This document shows, in pieces, positions 5,233-60,549 of a stretch of DNA of 64,000 nucleotides. The stretch is from assembly GCA_902788555.1 (NCBI GenBank), contig CADAKQ010000007.1:1-64000 (forward strand), in the 5' to 3' direction. The DNA is from an uncultured Lachnospiraceae bacterium. GTDB taxonomy: Bacteria; Bacillota; Clostridia; Lachnospirales; Lachnospiraceae. A program made the position numbers and the translations under genes. Position 1 is the first letter of the stretch, and each line of letters begins with the position of its first letter. The notes under the pieces were generated by a model. It made no database searches. It was not told the origin of the DNA and saw nothing but the letters and a program-made list of their open reading frames with translations.

Positions 5233-6897
5233 ATGAAGCAGTATAATACATGGTTTAAGGATTTTAATAAAAAATATATCGGACGGTATATCATAAATAG
5301 TATCAATTATATATATTTGTTTTTATTACTTTGTGTATTTCCTTTAGTATTTCATAATTATTATTTTGATATTACAAGGACAAGAAGCAATTTTTTTCTA
5401 AGAATTACAATAGGTTATATTATCCTGATTGCGATTGCTTATGCTTTTGAGATATATTGGACTAATTTATATAAATCAAAAAGTCTTTTTGTGGTTGAAA
5501 AGAAAGCTAATCCATGGCTTTATCCGGAGCTTTGGATGACTTTCTTTTTAATGTCTAATTTTTTTGCATATCTTATAACTCTCACAGATGATGGTATGAT
5601 TAATGCTAATTCTGCTTTTACAGGTTCTAATGGCAGACTTATGGGTTTTTCAATGTATATGGTTATAGGATTTATGTTTCTTTTGCTTTCAAGATATGCG
5701 GATATAAAGCTTCCCCTTTATGTTTTGTTTGGACTCGTGACAATTTTTTCATATTTTGTTTCAATTGTTCAACATATTGACCCGGATACAAAGCGTTTTT
5801 CGAAAATCGGCTTTGAACCAAAAGGGATGTGGGAAGGCTTTTTATTTTATGTTTTTAAGTTAAAGGATGGAATAAGTAAAAAACAGTATAATATATTTAT
5901 CTCTACTTTTGGAAATATAAATATATATGCATGCTTTATAGTGATAAGCCTGGCAGTTTTTGTATGCATGTTTATATTTTCCCAAAAGCTTTTTTATAGA
6001 ATTTTTGCCGGTATAATAGTAGCAATAGGCGGAATTGTCATTATGATAGCAAACAGCGACAGTGCATATATCGGTGTCGGTGCTGTGATGATATTAATGT
6101 TTATACTTGCCTTTAGGGATGATGTACTGATTAAATTCTTTCAAACACTTATTCTGCTCGGGCTTGGTAATCTTGGCATAGTTCTTATCAATAAATATAT
6201 GTCGGAAGTACTTAATAAAAAATATGATAAGCGCGGAGGCTTTGCCGAGCATCTTGACAGGCTTGATTATGCAGTTTTTATCTTGATTATGCTTGTGGTT
6301 ATGTATCTGATAGTATTTTTAATAAATCGAAAATTTAAGGATAAGCTTGAAGGGATGAATAAAAATAAGGCGATAATTATATTTATTTCAATTATTTTTG
6401 TTGTCGGTACCGCTATAGTTTATATAGGCAATAAAAAGCATATAGGTGCCTTTACCTTTAACTACAGATGGGGAACCTTTAGAGGCTATATATGGACAAA
6501 GAGTGTACAGCTTTTTAAAGCTGCACCTTTTATGAACAAGCTTTTCGGATATGGAAACGAATCTGTAAAAACGCTTATGACTACTTACTATTATGATGAG
6601 ATGGTTACGGTAACAAAGAAAATTTATGATAATGCACACAATGAGCTCTTGCAATATCTTGTAACAACGGGAATTTGTGGCTTGATATCTTATGTGGGAC
6701 TTTTTATAACAAGCTTTATTTATATACTTAAGAATTCTGAAAAAGATGTTGTGGCTTACATTTCGCTTGCAGTTATGCTTGGTTATTTTATACAGGGACT
6801 TATTAATCTCAATCAGCCTATTACGACACCGTTTTATTTTGTGTTCATGGCAGTCGGAGTAGGATATGTAAGAGGGCTTATGAGGAAGGATACGTAA
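5233..6897 (+). CDS. O-antigen ligase/Wzy-like polytopic membrane protein
   Basis: Membrane protein of 554 aa with about 12-13 hydrophobic segments. A long loop in the C-terminal third holds the pattern YDNAHNELLQYLVTTG (near residues 464-479) followed by Gly-rich helices. This is the hallmark of the O-antigen ligase/Wzy_C family, which transfers or polymerises undecaprenyl-linked glycans on the outer face of the membrane. GAGGGAG precedes the ATG, and a good promoter lies upstream. There are no glycosyltransferase neighbours, so its glycan partner is encoded elsewhere. Ligase versus polymerase cannot be decided from sequence. Confidence 0.7.
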   Translation: MKQYNTWFKDFNKKYIGRYIINSINYIYLFLLLCVFPLVFHNYYFDITRTRSNFFLRITIGYIILIAIAYAFEIYWTNLYKSKSLFVVEKKANPWLYPELWMTFFLMSNFFAYLITLTDDGMINANSAFTGSNGRLMGFSMYMVIGFMFLLLSRYADIKLPLYVLFGLVTIFSYFVSIVQHIDPDTKRFSKIGFEPKGMWEGFLFYVFKLKDGISKKQYNIFISTFGNINIYACFIVISLAVFVCMFIFSQKLFYRIFAGIIVAIGGIVIMIANSDSAYIGVGAVMILMFILAFRDDVLIKFFQTLILLGLGNLGIVLINKYMSEVLNKKYDKRGGFAEHLDRLDYAVFILIMLVVMYLIVFLINRKFKDKLEGMNKNKAIIIFISIIFVVGTAIVYIGNKKHIGAFTFNYRWGTFRGYIWTKSVQLFKAAPFMNKLFGYGNESVKTLMTTYYYDEMVTVTKKIYDNAHNELLQYLVTTGICGLISYVGLFITSFIYILKNSEKDVVAYISLAVMLGYFIQGLINLNQPITTPFYFVFMAVGVGYVRGLMRKDT

Positions 6898-7017
6898 AAT
6901 GATAAGTACTATGATAATTAAGGATATAAATGGATATATTATTTTGATAGATAAATCTTAGTATTGTTAAAATAATTAGAAAATATGCGATATTTGATAG
7001 AATTAAAGCGATAATTG

Positions 7018-7026
7018 TGATATAAT
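7018..7026 (+). promoter_or_regulatory. Extended -10 promoter element for tyrS
   Basis: TGATATAAT gives an extended -10 (TGnTATAAT) with only a weak -35 (TAGAAT at 6998-7003). It is about 56 nt before the tyrS start. The leader is too short for a T-box. Confidence 0.45.
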
Positions 7027-7081
7027 TCAAAAGATATGCAAATTTAAAAAGATTTTATTTGTTATGGAGGATATAAATAAA

Positions 7082-8302
7082 ATGGAACTTTATGATGAAT
7101 TAGTTGAAAGAGGACTTATTGCGCAGATAACCAATGAAGAAGAGGTTAGCAAACTTATAAATGAAGGAAAAGCTACCTTTTATATAGGCTTTGACCCTAC
7201 GGCAGACAGCCTGCATGTAGGACATTTTATGGCTCTTTGTCTTATGAAGAGACTTCAGATGGGAGGTAATAAGCCTATAGCACTTATAGGCGGTGGTACG
7301 GGTATGATTGGTGATCCGTCAGGAAGAACCGATATGCGTCAGATGATGACTCCTGAAACCATACAGCATAACTGTGACTGTTTTAAAAAGCAGATGAGTC
7401 GTTTTATTGATTTTTCAGATGGCAAGGCTCTTATGGTAAATAATGCTGACTGGCTTTTGAATCTTAATTATATAGACGTGCTTCGTGAAGTGGGTGCACA
7501 TTTTTCGGTTAACCGTATGCTTACTGCGGAGTGCTACAAACAGAGGATGGAAAAGGGCTTAAGCTTCTTAGAGTTTAACTATATGATAATGCAGGCATAT
7601 GATTTTTATATGTTATATCAAAATTACGGATGTAATCTTGAGTTTGGTGGTGATGATCAGTGGTCCAATATGCTTGCCGGAACTGAGCTTATAAGACGTA
7701 AGCTCGGTAAGGATGCACATGCCATGACTATAACACTTTTACTTAATTCAGAGGGCAAGAAGATGGGCAAAACCCAGAAGGGTGCAGTGTGGCTTGATCC
7801 AAATAAAACATCACCATTTGAGTTCTTCCAGTATTGGAGAAATGTCGATGATTCAGATGTTATAAAATGTCTTAAATTACTTACCTTCCTTCCGCTCGAG
7901 CAGATTAAAGAGATGGAAAAGTATGAGGGAAGCGAATTAAATAAGGCTAAAGAGGTTCTTGCTTACGAGCTTACAACACTTGTTCACGGAGAGGAAGAGG
8001 CTAAGAAGGCTCTTGATACCGCAAAGGGATTATTTGGTGGCGGTAATGCAGATAATATACCTACTGCCGGGCTTTCGGAGGATAATTTCAAAGAGGATAA
8101 GATTGACCTTATATCACTCCTTGTTGCTTCAGGTCTTGTTGCTTCAAGAAGCGAAGGAAGACGTGCCATAGAGCAGGGTGGAGTTACAGTAAATAATGAA
8201 AAGGTAACAGATGTAGTTGCTGCTTATGAGAAGAGTGCTTTTAATGATGAATTTATATTAAAGCGCGGTAAGAAGAATTTCAGAAAGATTGTGATTGAAT
8301 AA
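7082..8302 (+). CDS. tyrS: Tyrosyl-tRNA synthetase
   Basis: Class I aminoacyl-tRNA synthetase of 406 aa that charges tRNA-Tyr. The HIGH-type motif is DSLHVGHF, followed by the tyrosine-pocket region ([16 protein letters not shown]). The second signature is KKMGKTQKG in place of KFGKS. A C-terminal S4 RNA-binding domain ([17 protein letters not shown]) completes the usual plan. An in-frame ATG at 7064 overlaps the ribosome site GGAGG (7066-7070), so I start at 7082, which gives the normal family N-terminus [11 protein letters not shown]. It appears to be transcribed alone or with the following dehydrogenase gene. Confidence 0.96.
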
Positions 8303-8367
8303 AAATACGGATTAAAGACACAGATGATAAATAATAATAAGCTTAATAATTTATCGGGAGGAGCATC

Positions 8368-9423
8368 ATGGCAGGAAGTCATATAGCCATACCTACCATT
8401 CTTAAGGTAGGTAAGGGAACTATGGAAAATTTGGGCACATATCTTAAGGATAACGAATTCCAAAATGCTGTTATATATTTTGGTAACGGACTTATAGATA
8501 TGTTTGGAAAGGATATAATAAAAAATCTGGAAAAATCAGGCATAAACATACTTGATTATATGGAGCTTGATACGGTAGATATAAATGACATTATTAATCT
8601 TGCTTTTGACATAGACTCAAAGGCACAGGTAATTCTTGGTATAGGCGGCGGCAAGGTTATAGATACTGCAAAGTATGCTGCTTATCTTCGTAAGCTTCCT
8701 TTTATAAGCATACCGACATCGGCATCCAGTGACGGCTTTTCCTCAGCCAGTGCCTCACTTATCGTAAATGGAAGAAGAACCTCTGTGCCGGCTAGGATGG
8801 CTTACGGAATAGTTGTTGACACAGATATAATCAAGAGCGCACCTGAGAAGTTTTTATACTCAGGTATAGGTGATATGGTTGCTAAGATTACCTCTTTGTA
8901 CGATTGGCTTTTTGAGTCGGAAAAAGGATATTCTGATATGAATGACTTTGCTGTTATGATTGCTAAAAAGGCTGTAAACAGCTTTGTCAGAACCCCTTTT
9001 GAAAGCATAAGGGATGATCTGTTTTTAAGAGAGCTTGTGGATTCGCTTGCCATGAGCGGAATTGCCAATGAGATAGCGGGAGGCAGCACGCCTACCAGCG
9101 GAAGTGAGCACCTTATCTCACATGCTCTTGATAAAATGCTTGAGAGGCCACAGCTTCATGGAGTACAGGTTGGTATCGCAACCTATCTTATGAGCAGGGT
9201 TCAGGATCACAGATATGTCAGAGTAAATGCTATATTTGAAAAGACAGGCTTCTGGGATTATGTAAGTACACTTGATTTAAACAGAGAGGATTATGAGAAG
9301 GCTATAGATATGGCTCCTTCAATTAAGCCTCACAGACATACTTATCTTCACGAAGAAGAGTACAGAGAGCTTGCAAAGAAAATATTGAGAGAGGACGAGG
9401 TACTTAAGAGAGTATTCGGTTAG
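8368..9423 (+). CDS. egsA: sn-glycerol-1-phosphate dehydrogenase (EgsA/AraM family)
   Basis: Predicted to reduce dihydroxyacetone phosphate to sn-glycerol-1-phosphate with NAD(P)H. The protein has 351 aa and the iron/zinc alcohol-dehydrogenase fold: nucleotide-binding GIGGGKVIDTAK, then SIPTSASSDGFSSASAS, then metal-site segments GIGDMVAK (Asp), SGSEHLISHAL (His) and LHGVQVGI (His). The SSDGF signature separates G1P dehydrogenases from glycerol dehydrogenases. The strong site GGGAGGAGC precedes the ATG. A HAD phosphatase gene starts three bases after its stop. Bacterial members (B. subtilis AraM) feed archaeal-type glyceryl ethers; that pathway is not otherwise seen here. Confidence 0.85.
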   Translation: MAGSHIAIPTILKVGKGTMENLGTYLKDNEFQNAVIYFGNGLIDMFGKDIIKNLEKSGINILDYMELDTVDINDIINLAFDIDSKAQVILGIGGGKVIDTAKYAAYLRKLPFISIPTSASSDGFSSASASLIVNGRRTSVPARMAYGIVVDTDIIKSAPEKFLYSGIGDMVAKITSLYDWLFESEKGYSDMNDFAVMIAKKAVNSFVRTPFESIRDDLFLRELVDSLAMSGIANEIAGGSTPTSGSEHLISHALDKMLERPQLHGVQVGIATYLMSRVQDHRYVRVNAIFEKTGFWDYVSTLDLNREDYEKAIDMAPSIKPHRHTYLHEEEYRELAKKILREDEVLKRVFG

Positions 9424-54073: not shown

Positions 54074-54952
54074 TTGAGTAAAAAGAAAAGGACTACTGCC
54101 ATCATTTTACTCATCATAATCGAGCTTTTACTTGCAGCCGGAATTGCATTTACAAACGGGGCGGCGGAAAAGCACGAAACGATTAAGGAAATGATGAGAG
54201 ATGCGGTGCTCCACGAGGAAAACAAGATAAGTCTTTTCGGACTTTCGGTTAATCCTTCGCTTATAGCAGGATATACCGTGACCGGAATCATACTTATCTT
54301 TGCACTGATTGTGAGGATATTTGTTATACCGAGATTCAAAAATGTGCCGGGTAAATTTCAATTGGTATTGGAAACCTGGGTTGGATTTTTTGATAATCTG
54401 GCAAAGACAAACAGTCCGCACAGCAACGGATTTTTGGGAGCATATATATTTGCAACGGGAACCTATGTATTTACGGGTACTTGCTTTGAACTGTTCGGAA
54501 TTCAGGCAATAACTACCGAGGGACATTCCATTTCACTTCCGGCACCTCTTGCCGATATAAACGGAGCGATTATGATGGGATGCTTATCATATCTTATTAT
54601 AATGTCCGGCGGTATTATGAATAACAAGCTAAGAGGCGTGGGACTTACATTGAAGGAATTTTCACTTCCTCTATCTATGAGCTTCCGTCTTTTCGGAGCG
54701 CTCCTTTCGGGTATGCTTGTTACAGAGCTTATATACTTTACCTTGGGACTTTCGATATTGCTTCCGGTAGTGGTAGGCGTGGTTTTCACATTACTGCATG
54801 CACTTATACAGGCATACGTGCTTACACTGCTTACGGCGATATTCTACGGAGAGGTTTCAGAACCGCCGAAGCCTAAGGAAAAGAAGCAAAAGAAAGATAA
54901 GAATAAGAATAAAAATGATGCCGAGCCGGATGTGAAGGTTCAGGAAGCATAA
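54074..54952 (+). CDS. atpB: ATP synthase subunit a
   Basis: Stator proton-channel subunit of the Fo sector, 292 aa with a TTG start after AGGAGTC. An N-terminal helix (about 8-25) precedes a soluble loop, then the usual four or five helices. The essential Arg is in LSMSFRLFGALLSGML. A C-terminal helix (LLHALIQAYVLTLLTAIFYGE) is typical. The tail (EPPKPKEKKQKKDKNKNKND) is an unusual, highly charged extension of about 35 residues. Heads the operon. Confidence 0.93.
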   Translation: MSKKKRTTAIILLIIIELLLAAGIAFTNGAAEKHETIKEMMRDAVLHEENKISLFGLSVNPSLIAGYTVTGIILIFALIVRIFVIPRFKNVPGKFQLVLETWVGFFDNLAKTNSPHSNGFLGAYIFATGTYVFTGTCFELFGIQAITTEGHSISLPAPLADINGAIMMGCLSYLIIMSGGIMNNKLRGVGLTLKEFSLPLSMSFRLFGALLSGMLVTELIYFTLGLSILLPVVVGVVFTLLHALIQAYVLTLLTAIFYGEVSEPPKPKEKKQKKDKNKNKNDAEPDVKVQEA

Positions 54953-55003
54953 TAAAGAAGATAAATCGATTAAATATGATTATTAATCCAATAAAAAAGA
55001 TAA

Positions 55004-55486
<483 letters not shown>

Positions 55487-55504
55487 CAAAGCGAGGTGTC
55501 TAAT

Positions 55505-56011
55505 ATGGTACTAACAGGATTACCGCTTAATATTGATTTTCAACAGATATTACTTCATCTTGCTAACTTTGCCATACTTTTCTTTGGTTTATATATTCTT
55601 CTTTATAAACCTGTTAAAGATTTTATGGATAAAAGACAGGCACATTATAAGAGTCTTGATGATGAGGCAAATGACAAGCTTGCCGGTGCAAAGGAAAAAG
55701 AAGAAGAATATCAAAATAAACTTAACAGTGTTGATGAAGAAATAGATAAAAAGAAGAAGGAAGCTGCGGCAGAGCTTGATACCATGCGTGTTGAAAAAGA
55801 AAAGGAAGCTAAGGAAAAGGCAGATAAGATTGTCGAGGATGCACGTAAGGAAGCAGAGAGTGTCCGTGCCAATATCATCAACAGTGCAAGTAAAGATATA
55901 ACTGATATGGTAAGTCAGGCGGCTGAAAAGATATTTATGAGTGATGACATAGAAAAGGCTTATGATGTTTTCTTGGAGGATGCTGAAAGGAGCGTAAAGG
56001 ATGGAGAATAA
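55505..56011 (+). CDS. atpF: ATP synthase subunit b
   Basis: Peripheral-stalk subunit of 168 aa. One membrane helix (about residues 15-35, HLANFAILFFGLYILLYKPV) is followed by a long charged coiled coil (KLAGAKEKEEEYQNKLNSV and on). The C-terminal part (ITDMVSQAAEKIF) normally contacts delta. A GTG at 55496 overlaps the ribosome site GCGAGG, so I start at the ATG at 55505. It overlaps the start of atpA by 11 bases, where atpH would usually be. Confidence 0.92.
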   Translation: MVLTGLPLNIDFQQILLHLANFAILFFGLYILLYKPVKDFMDKRQAHYKSLDDEANDKLAGAKEKEEEYQNKLNSVDEEIDKKKKEAAAELDTMRVEKEKEAKEKADKIVEDARKEAESVRANIINSASKDITDMVSQAAEKIFMSDDIEKAYDVFLEDAERSVKDGE

Positions 56012-57785
56012 AATGCCCGAAAAGCGTAATGCATATCTCTATGCCAAGGCAGCACCCACACAGGAACAAAAGGCAAGATTTGAGAGCTTTCTTAAGCAGA
56101 AATATAATGAGGATATAAGCCTGGAATGGGTAGAAGATAATGAAATAAGAGGCTTTAAACTCATTTATGATACGGAAATATTTAACTGGACTCCGGAGGG
56201 AAGATTTGCTCAGTTTAAGGATAAGTTAGATGAAATTTCCATGAGATATGCCAGCAAGTCACAGCCTGATCAGATGATTACCCTGCTTAAAAAGTCCATT
56301 GAAGACTTTGAACTTGAAGCGGTTGCCGAGGAAGAGGGTAAGGTCAAAACCGTAGGTGACGGTATCGTCGTTGTGGAAGGCCTTGATTCGGTTAGGTATG
56401 GCGAGATAGTAGTCTTTGAATCCGGTGTAAAGGGTATGGTTCAGGATTTAAGACGTGGTGAGATAGGTGTCATTCTCTTTGGTGAGGATGATGAGATAAC
56501 AGACGGAAGTCTGGTAAGAAGAACTAAAAAGACTGCCGGTATTGCCGTTGGTGAAGGCTTTGTAGGCAGAGTTGTAGATGCACTTGGAAACCCGATTGAC
56601 AATAAGGGGGACATAGCAGCATCTGATTATCGTGCTTTGGAGACACCGGCGCCAAGTATAATTGACAGACAGCCGGTAAATGAACCGATGGATACCGGAC
56701 TTTTATCCATTGATTCCATGTTCCCTATAGGACGAGGACAAAGAGAGTTAATTATAGGTGACAGACAGACGGGAAAAACTACGGTTGCCCTTGATACAAT
56801 ACTTAATCAAAAGGGTAATGGCGTTATATGTATATATGTTGCGATAGGACAAAAGGCGAGCAGTGTTGCACAGCTTGTCGGAACATTAAATAAGCATGAT
56901 GCTATGAGCTATACAATAGTCGTAAATGCATCTGCTTCCGACACGGCTCCGCTTCAGTATATAGCTCCTTATGCGGGTACCGCTTTGGGAGAATATTTTA
57001 TGGAGCAGGGCAAGGATGTGCTTATTGTATATGATGATTTATCAAAGCATGCGATAGCCTATAGAGCCTTAAGTCTTTTGCTTGAGCGTTCTCCGGGACG
57101 TGAGGCATATCCTGGAGATGTATTTTATCTTCATTCAAGACTTTTGGAGCGTTCTGCACATCTTTCTGCTGAAAAAGGCGGCGGTTCACTTACTGCGCTT
57201 CCTATAGTAGAAACTCAGGCAGGAGATGTTTCGGCATATATTCCGACCAATATTATATCCATAACTGATGGTCAGATATTCCTTGAGAGCGAGCTTTTCT
57301 TCTCGGGACAAAGACCTGCGGTAAATGTCGGACTTTCCGTATCCCGTGTAGGCGGAGCCGCACAGACCAAGGCTATGAAAAAAGCTGCCGGCGGTGTAAG
57401 ACTCGACCTTGCACAGTACAGAGAGATGGAGGTTTTTACCCAGTTTTCAAGTGACTTGGATGATGCGACCAAAAGACAACTGGTTTACGGTCAGGGACTT
57501 ATGAGACTTTTAAGACAGCCGCAGAGTCATCCGATGAAGCTGCATGAGCAGGTTATAACTCTTGTTTCGGCTACTGCTCATGTTATGCAGGATATACCGC
57601 TTGAGAGCATGCTGGATTTTAGAAATAAGCTTTTTGATTATTTCCATGCAAATGCCATGACACTTTGTAATACCATAGACGATACAGGTCTGTTATCCGA
57701 TGACGATAAGCAGACTATTATAGATGAGGCAAAGAAGTTCTGTGACGAATACCTTGAGGGTATGGTAAATGAGGACGGTGAGTAG
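56001..57785 (+). CDS. atpA: ATP synthase subunit alpha fused to a delta-like C-terminal domain
   Basis: A 594-aa protein; normal alpha is 500-510. From about residue 95 it is ordinary alpha: VVVEGLDSVRYGEIV, Walker A GDRQTGKTTVALD (253-260), VYDDLSKHA and ILLERSPGREAYPGD-type segments. Residues 1-85 are extra and look like the C-terminal domain of delta/OSCP: APTQEQKARFESFLKQKY, then ISLEWVEDNEIRGFKLI and FNWTPEGRFAQFKDKLDEI, matching the delta pattern of a short helix, GGxxL strand and D-x-S/T-x-xGRLxxL helix. The alpha N-terminal helix that normally binds delta seems replaced. ATG 56013 is an alternative start after GGAG. No atpH exists nearby. Confidence 0.9.
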   Translation: MENKMPEKRNAYLYAKAAPTQEQKARFESFLKQKYNEDISLEWVEDNEIRGFKLIYDTEIFNWTPEGRFAQFKDKLDEISMRYASKSQPDQMITLLKKSIEDFELEAVAEEEGKVKTVGDGIVVVEGLDSVRYGEIVVFESGVKGMVQDLRRGEIGVILFGEDDEITDGSLVRRTKKTAGIAVGEGFVGRVVDALGNPIDNKGDIAASDYRALETPAPSIIDRQPVNEPMDTGLLSIDSMFPIGRGQRELIIGDRQTGKTTVALDTILNQKGNGVICIYVAIGQKASSVAQLVGTLNKHDAMSYTIVVNASASDTAPLQYIAPYAGTALGEYFMEQGKDVLIVYDDLSKHAIAYRALSLLLERSPGREAYPGDVFYLHSRLLERSAHLSAEKGGGSLTALPIVETQAGDVSAYIPTNIISITDGQIFLESELFFSGQRPAVNVGLSVSRVGGAAQTKAMKKAAGGVRLDLAQYREMEVFTQFSSDLDDATKRQLVYGQGLMRLLRQPQSHPMKLHEQVITLVSATAHVMQDIPLESMLDFRNKLFDYFHANAMTLCNTIDDTGLLSDDDKQTIIDEAKKFCDEYLEGMVNEDGE

Positions 57786-57787
57786 GG

Positions 57788-60102
<2,315 letters not shown>

Positions 60103-60135
60103 TTGTTAAAAAGGCTGTAAAGAGGTGATGTTTTA

Positions 60136-60549
60136 GTGGAACATACATTTAAAGCAAGAATATATGAGGCAGACAGTCCGTTTTTTGAAGGGGAGCTTAC
60201 TTCGGTAGTTGTACCTGCGATAGACGGAGAGTATGGTGTATTGGCTAACCACAGAAATGTCGTTATAGCTATAGTTCCGGGAAATATGCACTTTACTTTG
60301 CCGGATGGCACAGTAGAATATGTTATCGTTTCCGAGGGTATGATGAGGGTTGAAAATAACGATGTATTAATCCTCATTAATCATGCCGAAAGACCGGATG
60401 AGGTAGAGGCAAACCGTGCCAGGGAAAAGGAAGAGGAGCTTATCGAAGCAAAACTTCAAAAGAAAAGTGTAGAAGAATATCTCGAGGCTGAGCTTATGAT
60501 GCAAAGAGCCATGGCGGGACTAAGAGATAAGGGACGTAAGATGGATTGA
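60136..60549 (+). CDS. atpC: ATP synthase subunit epsilon
   Basis: Small F1 rotor subunit of 137 aa that can inhibit ATP hydrolysis. Residues 1-85 are the beta-sandwich (FFEGELTSVVVPAIDGEYG, NHRNVVIAIVPG), followed by a two-helix C-terminal domain (EANRAREKEEELIEAKLQKK). It starts at GTG, eight bases after AGAGGTG. Last gene of the ATP synthase operon. Confidence 0.93.
   Translation: MEHTFKARIYEADSPFFEGELTSVVVPAIDGEYGVLANHRNVVIAIVPGNMHFTLPDGTVEYVIVSEGMMRVENNDVLILINHAERPDEVEANRAREKEEELIEAKLQKKSVEEYLEAELMMQRAMAGLRDKGRKMD

Follow-up and report, generated by a model that had tools for sequence, protein, structure and literature searches.

How is the stator of an ATP synthase anchored when its operon carries no delta gene? 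The question is raised by 64,000 nucleotides of DNA from an uncultured Lachnospiraceae bacterium (contig CADAKQ010000007.1), the whole of which we call the window. In known enzymes the tail of b binds the C-terminal domain (CTD) of delta, and the delta N-terminal domain sits on the alpha3 crown (PMC6131620 and PMC12229609, in the passages at hand). In the window, seven genes at 54074-60549 make up an F-ATPase operon in the order a-c-b-alpha-gamma-beta-epsilon, and all seven subunits lie above their Pfam cut-offs in the Pfam and NCBIfam scans. We believe it very probably encodes an F-type ATP synthase in which alpha itself has taken over the stator clamp. Its features are as follows.

54074..54952, plus strand: atpB, subunit a, with a TTG start (Pfam ATP-synt_A, E 2.5e-16)
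55019..55486, plus strand: atpE, subunit c (Pfam ATP-synt_C over residues 88-151, E 2.6e-17)
55496..56011, plus strand: atpF, subunit b, 171 aa, GTG start listed (Pfam ATP-synt_B, E 1e-15)
56001..57785, plus strand: atpA, delta-CTD-alpha fusion, 594 aa
56028..56249, plus strand: delta C-terminal domain within AtpA, residues ~10-83 (AF2, Foldseek, and hhalign over 10-78)
56265..56306, plus strand: retained alpha N-terminal helix, AtpA residues 89-102 (AF2, alignment with free alphas)
57788..58717, plus strand: atpG, gamma (Pfam ATP-synt, E 4.2e-91)
58714..60102, plus strand: atpD, beta (TIGR01039, E 2.5e-242)
60136..60549, plus strand: atpC, epsilon (Pfam ATP-synt_DE_N, E 5e-19)

An earlier sequence-only reading of this DNA put AtpA at 56001-57785, and both the coordinates and the length of 594 aa are correct. 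It was also right about the gene order without delta and about the overlap: the frame of b, which ends at 56011, shares 11 bases with that of AtpA. Because b and alpha overlap there is no room for a delta gene between them, and none is found as a separate chain anywhere in the operon. The b protein, for which an ATG at 55505 is another possible start, ends in the tail AYDVFLEDAER. An AAAGGAG-like ribosome site is seen by eye just 5' of the atpA ATG. The normal alpha model, TIGR00962, begins to match only at residue 88 of 594, so AtpA has about 88 additional N-terminal residues, in line with the roughly 90 claimed. We considered an un-fused alpha made from an internal ATG start and rejected it; by eye no ribosome site is visible ahead of the ATG at residue 81 or the one at residue 92, and they are not conserved in all relatives. 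The enzyme is not an N-type F-ATPase, since the alt_F1F0 models give alpha 605 bits against a cut-off of 750 and beta 589 against 752. Nor is a delta domain carried on b as in mycobacteria; the window b is separate and the domain is on alpha, so the reading was justified in calling this a different solution.

Residues ~10-83 of AtpA are the delta C-terminal, b-binding domain. This had been proposed, together with a structural check against OSCP/delta, and it is supported by profile-profile comparison, the AF2 fold, OSCP matches in relatives and the fusion series described below. When a profile of 70 CTD-only sequences (A2) is compared with 17 free deltas by hhalign, window residues 10-78 align with delta 108-178 (E 4.9e-6, probability 86). 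The AF2 model of the extension has a mean pLDDT of 79.6 and a pTM of 0.62, with 10-residue blocks over 11-70 averaging 89-95. Its topology is that of the delta CTD: a strand, a helix, three strands and a helix, then the alpha N-helix, which in the model and in alignment comes directly after the delta domain. Against the PDB, Foldseek ranks 1-38 are all chains from ATP synthase entries (probability 0.95-1.00, best E 5.7e-4, two matches at E <= 0.001), and six of them go under the names delta, b-delta, delta-alpha or OSCP. A ribosome chain follows at rank 39, and the list is mixed from there on. Compared with the delta/OSCP family (PF00213), the extension has the fold and profile of the CTD and lacks the N-terminal domain. 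This absence had also been claimed, and it is borne out by the ~9 residues that stand ahead of the CTD and by the overlap of b with AtpA.

One could still argue that the extension is an unrelated add-on that merely resembles delta. The direct searches lend this some color. The window AtpA alone has no OSCP match in Pfam at E <= 1, its N-region has only sub-cut-off matches in Pfam and NCBIfam, and phmmer against the PDB returns three chance-level matches. The window sequence alone is therefore weak in direct searches, and homology has to be established through profiles, intermediates or fold. All of these concur, however. The Pfam OSCP model is matched above cut-off, by its C-terminal part only, in the CTD-only relatives L026 (5e-9), L024 (2.9e-6) and L008 (9.6e-6), and below cut-off, again by that part, in L010 (0.0039). 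Nearly the whole profile is matched in the long fusions L015, L018 and L021 (E 7e-17 to 3e-24), which are full-length intermediates. The AF2 model has no match in a viral library at E <= 0.001, which also speaks against an unrelated add-on. We give this explanation next to no credence. The top PDB match of the A2 profile is an engineered three-stalk chain, 9jc1_I (E 5e-7), and it runs through the fusion junction; that chain is favored partly because the A2 profile likewise covers both domains.

The relatives show how such a protein could be reached. AtpA residues 1-100, searched over 150 family genomes, have matches in 35 of them at 36 places. Window-like fused alphas of 576-638 aa account for 19 of the 36 places, plus L006 at a broken contig end; frames of 669-679 aa and of 172-188 aa are found at eight places each. 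By alignment the ~670-aa proteins are an entire delta followed by alpha, and the three short frames that were inspected (L027, L032, L034) are free deltas adjoining an ordinary alpha. There is then a ladder among the relatives from free delta through full-length delta-alpha fusion (~670 aa) to CTD-only fusion (~590 aa). The gap between b and alpha, with ORFs counted from the first possible start, is 480-576 bases at free-delta loci (n=15), -29 to 6 at full fusions (n=18) and -167 to 86 at CTD-only loci (n=124, including at least eight repeat samplings of one place). Six of ten free-delta sister loci (L182, L185, L191-L193, L195) show a four-base overlap between delta and alpha, which is an easy start for a fusion.

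The full-length fusions (L015, L017-L021, L028, L033, L115-L118, L120-L125) retain the delta N-domain, so that F1 would bear three of them though the axis should fit just one. An apparent b-delta-alpha triple fusion in L107, a 787-aa ORF, was rejected, since it reads into atpB out of frame and lacks c and b; this Lawsonibacter MAG, which has no c or b between a and alpha at 6057-8767, probably contains an assembly join. The broken frames of beta in L109 (5024-6428) and alpha in L056 (6923-8768), both in MAG contigs, are probably sequence errors.

The extension of AtpA is not due to chance. In the order sample at least 33 of the 295 genomes have a fused alpha by a junction profile, counting, among the matches listed, those in which the profile is matched over ~1-151 with no internal stop. 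By family these are 22 f1, 8 f8 and 3 f17, and by type 10 full and 23 CTD-only. The phylum sample of 398 genomes has five stop-free matches at E <= 1e-28, of which four are from f1 and the fifth, G699, is from a different family of the class, and ten other matches with stops between delta and alpha. In the scan of public genomes each of the 80 loci kept has the extension, with the match starting at query residue 1-11; these are the best 80 of 575 and are therefore biased towards likeness. All 80 named loci belong to Clostridia. Most bear the label Lachnospiraceae and come from rumen or gut, and the other labels include Eubacterium, Oscillospiraceae, Mogibacterium and Christensenellaceae. A survey of relatives for the same fusion had been suggested at the outset, and the order sample and these loci both show it to recur.

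Whether the fusion happened once is a question for the alpha tree, which we built from 77 chosen alpha cores with the extension removed. A single clade for all fused forms is not rejected by the AU test (p 0.569, lnL 5.6 higher), and a single clade for the CTD-only forms is rejected (p 0.006); these hypotheses were picked after the tree was known. Since the CTD-only forms are not one clade, loss of the N-domain that blocks the axis seems to have occurred repeatedly. One fusion followed by several losses of the delta N-domain is the simplest reading. Three CTD-only rows from f17 (L181, L183, L184) sit apart and may represent an independent fusion. It counts against a single clean fusion clade that L190, which has a free delta, is placed within it with support of 83-84; we take this as a weak placement. 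A parsimony count of fusion origins on a quick tree, with 8 CTD-only changes of which 5 are forced by starred branches, was set aside in favor of the AU test.

The claim that there is no separate atpH holds for the operon but not for the genome. A complete atpH lies at G000:C4:89231-89746 (OSCP E 1.3e-45), just the finding that the sequence-only reading had named as one against it. Yet this gene belongs to a second, complete canonical F-ATPase operon (L003 5659-12201) with its own alpha of 500 aa, and some genomes that have a fused alpha lack a free delta altogether. No other delta gene was found in the window genome (88.7% complete); a second weak OSCP match at C35 (E 0.096) has stops inside and was discarded.

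The second operon makes it possible to argue for mixed assembly, in which the canonical delta, and its alpha too, is recruited to the window enzyme and the fused domain is not a working clamp. The genome does encode a full canonical delta, and the two betas are 71% identical. But identity falls to 53% between the alphas and to 25-41% for gamma, a, b, c and epsilon, and genomes with a single alpha and no free delta have the same architecture. We regard mixed assembly as very improbable.

We checked 32 genomes with fused alphas, all 28 from the 150-genome family search and four from the order sample, counting an F-type alpha at E <= 1e-150 and a free delta by the OSCP cut-off. The window genome is among 23 with two or three F-type alphas, most of which have a free delta. 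In the other nine the fused alpha is the sole F-type alpha and there is no free delta: G142, G109, G137, G062, G043, G079, G179 and G251 are CTD-only and G082 is full. Seven of them are at least 94% complete, G137 81% and G251 88%. Three of five named non-MAG records of unstated completeness (AC2031, NE2001, LC2019) likewise have a fused alpha only and no free delta, and AB2028 and XPB1003 have both fused and ordinary alphas. Altogether 12 of the 37 genomes checked have a fused F-type alpha alone without free delta, so the free delta is dispensable. OSCP matches that start at position 22-31 and run across a stop (G062, G137, G826, G827, G830) were put down to alignment of the profile with the end of b, because b sits there in the operons read. 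Six single-alpha genomes were read as operons, and each has a-c-b-alpha-gamma-beta-epsilon with no extra gene inside. A V/A-type ATPase A subunit is present in eight of nine single-F-type-alpha genomes (G062, G043, G079, G109, G179, G826, G827, G830), AC2031, NE2001 and LC2019 among them, at 902-955 bits, just below the model cut-off of 972. None was found in G142, a 94% complete draft, or in the window genome.

The two enzymes of the window genome may also differ in their ion. Subunit c of the partner canonical operons carries Q..ETTGLY, which we take to be a Na+ motif, in 22 of 24 distinct loci. The Gln is absent from c in fused operons (0 of 120 CTD-only, 0 of 18 full), and the window c has Met in place of this Na+ ligand. 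Since the motif Gln is missing, the fused enzyme probably runs on H+ and its partner on Na+, as judged from c sequences. The window genome itself pairs a canonical F-ATPase with the Na+ motif (C4) and a fused one with the H+ motif. It has an Rnf-type subunit, and the 49-kDa/Ech-type large subunit family has no match in this 88.7% complete draft. Schoelmerich et al. are said to have described two ATP synthases in Pseudobutyrivibrio in 2020. For Pseudobutyrivibrio ruminis two are reported, one H+ and one Na+, in the passages at hand of PMC11026938. The window c also has an N-terminal extension of ~73 residues, a signal-peptide-like helix and then an acidic stretch. Extensions of more than 25 residues are found on c in 94 of 120 CTD-only loci and in none of the 18 full-fusion and 16 free-delta loci. 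If the extension is cleaved, acidic tails would remain on the outer face of the c-ring.

What would the fused domain do? The C-terminal tail of the b dimer would bind the AtpA domain as it binds delta elsewhere, and b would hold alpha directly; judging from the fold and the b tail, such binding is likely. The tail motif [YF][DENGQ]xF[LIV] is found in b at 116 of 124 CTD-only loci, all 18 full-fusion loci and 8 of 15 free-delta loci. The seven free-delta loci without it include two near variants (L191, L193), four canonical loci (L003, L187, L196, L197) and the divergent L190. Since the motif is retained, the delta-docking part of b appears unchanged. There are three alphas in F1, so the head would offer three equivalent anchor sites. 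The enzyme also lacks the delta N-domain, whose usual place on the threefold axis leaves room for a single stalk. One c-ring could then be surrounded by two or three b2-plus-a stators, and we put the chance of this in the window enzyme, by analogy with an engineered one, a little short of even. The sequence-only reading did not go as far as several peripheral stalks.

That engineered enzyme is the Bacillus PS3 deltaDeltaN-alpha FoF1 of Ueno et al. (Nat Commun 2025;16:5410, PMC12229609; PDB 9jc1), which we cite from the passages at hand. It has up to three stalks and three a-subunits, two on average, and binds b2 by the canonical contact at all three sites. Its H+/ATP ratio is 5.8 against 3.0, and it synthesizes ATP at about half the pmf. 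One- or two-stalk forms occur too, triple-stalk particles are rare and pump activity is lower, so three sites need not all be filled.

It is just as easy to believe, and again not quite an even bet, that the window enzyme has a single stalk: the fused CTD binds b, one copy holds the sole b2-a stator and two stand idle. On this reading the use of the fusion would be to spare a gene or to set the stoichiometry. Every ATP synthase known so far has one a-subunit, according to the same passages of PMC12229609. The full-length fusions, which retain the stalk-limiting N-domain, indicate that a fusion can exist without multi-stalk assembly, and the three N-domains they hold tell against a simple three-stalk picture. 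On the other side, the N-domain has apparently been lost more than once (CTD-only clade, AU p 0.006), and the engineered equivalent assembles extra stalks when sites are offered (PMC12229609, passages at hand). A further idea is that one stator splits its two b chains between two different alpha-borne domains. Three equivalent sites, two b chains on hand and a conserved tail motif would allow this, but the engineered b2 pair docks on one delta CTD through the canonical contact (same source and extent), and no sequence feature points to splitting; we consider it improbable.

With multiple stators each turn would move N_c x N_a protons, and a low proton-motive force would suffice for the enzyme, or else it would expel a large number of protons for each ATP. 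In its widest form the proposal is that a gut and rumen clade of Clostridia has natural multi-stalk ATP synthases, in which every head would have two or three b2-a stators on a single c-ring and the H+/ATP ratio would be two to three times the usual. They would have arisen by delta-alpha fusion and then repeated N-domain deletion, and be paired with a second rotary ATPase, either a Na+-type F-ATPase or a V/A-type. Taken as a whole we hold this tentatively, as somewhat more doubtful than believable. Of the two F-type ATP synthases that the cell encodes, the one in the window very probably has the stator clamp built into each of its three alphas.

It is important to realize that the CTD-only fusion is not unprecedented. 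It was engineered, and noted in Acidaminococcus fermentans, in 2025 (PMC12229609, passages at hand); before the engineered enzyme, the rule was that an ATP synthase has a single stator and a single a-subunit. The same passages name natural delta-alpha fusions (A. fermentans, UniProt G4Q3K6, A0A1I2C5T3) and suggest a multi-stalk structure. The Discussion of that paper mentions neither Lachnospiraceae nor full-length fusions, and the passages at hand of PMC6131620, PMC6377231, PMC4478896 and PMC11026938 do not describe a delta-alpha fusion. In the literature within our search, beyond which subscription papers, preprints and supplements mostly lay, we found no record of the Clostridia clade, of a full-length delta-alpha intermediate, of repeated N-domain loss, of genomes with a fused F-type alpha only or of a fused H+ enzyme paired with a canonical Na+ one. 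What the clade adds is a large set of natural enzymes of the engineered design, along with the stages of its evolution, from free delta through full fusion to CTD-only, and with genomes showing no other F-type alpha. Natural multi-stalk, variable-gear ATP synthases therefore become a directly testable question.

Canonical F1Fo enzymes (E. coli, PS3, chloroplast, the C4 operon) have the same CTD fold and all the other subunits, and the same b tail contact is expected in the window enzyme; they differ in having a free delta with its N-domain on the alpha3 crown. The mycobacterial b-delta is present in one copy per enzyme, whereas a domain joined to alpha, as in the window, would come in three. 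Both carry a delta domain covalently on another subunit, and Foldseek matches chains of the mycobacterial structures (PDB 7jg5, 7njk), but there the domain is joined to b (7jg5_d, "subunit b-delta") and in the window it is on alpha and is the CTD only. Acidaminococcus fermentans, from the short description in PMC12229609, has a delta without its N-domain joined to alpha; it is reported there by sequence only. The engineered enzyme is artificial, being built on that of PS3 and lacking the epsilon C-domain, and stalk number and H+/ATP were measured there (passages at hand), while the window enzyme is known from its sequence and a predicted fold. In design the two agree: the delta CTD (105-178) was placed on the alpha N-terminus and the N-domain and free delta were deleted (same passages), the window likewise has the CTD ahead of the alpha N-helix and no delta gene with the enzyme, and the A2 profile aligns over the engineered junction with two one-residue gaps.
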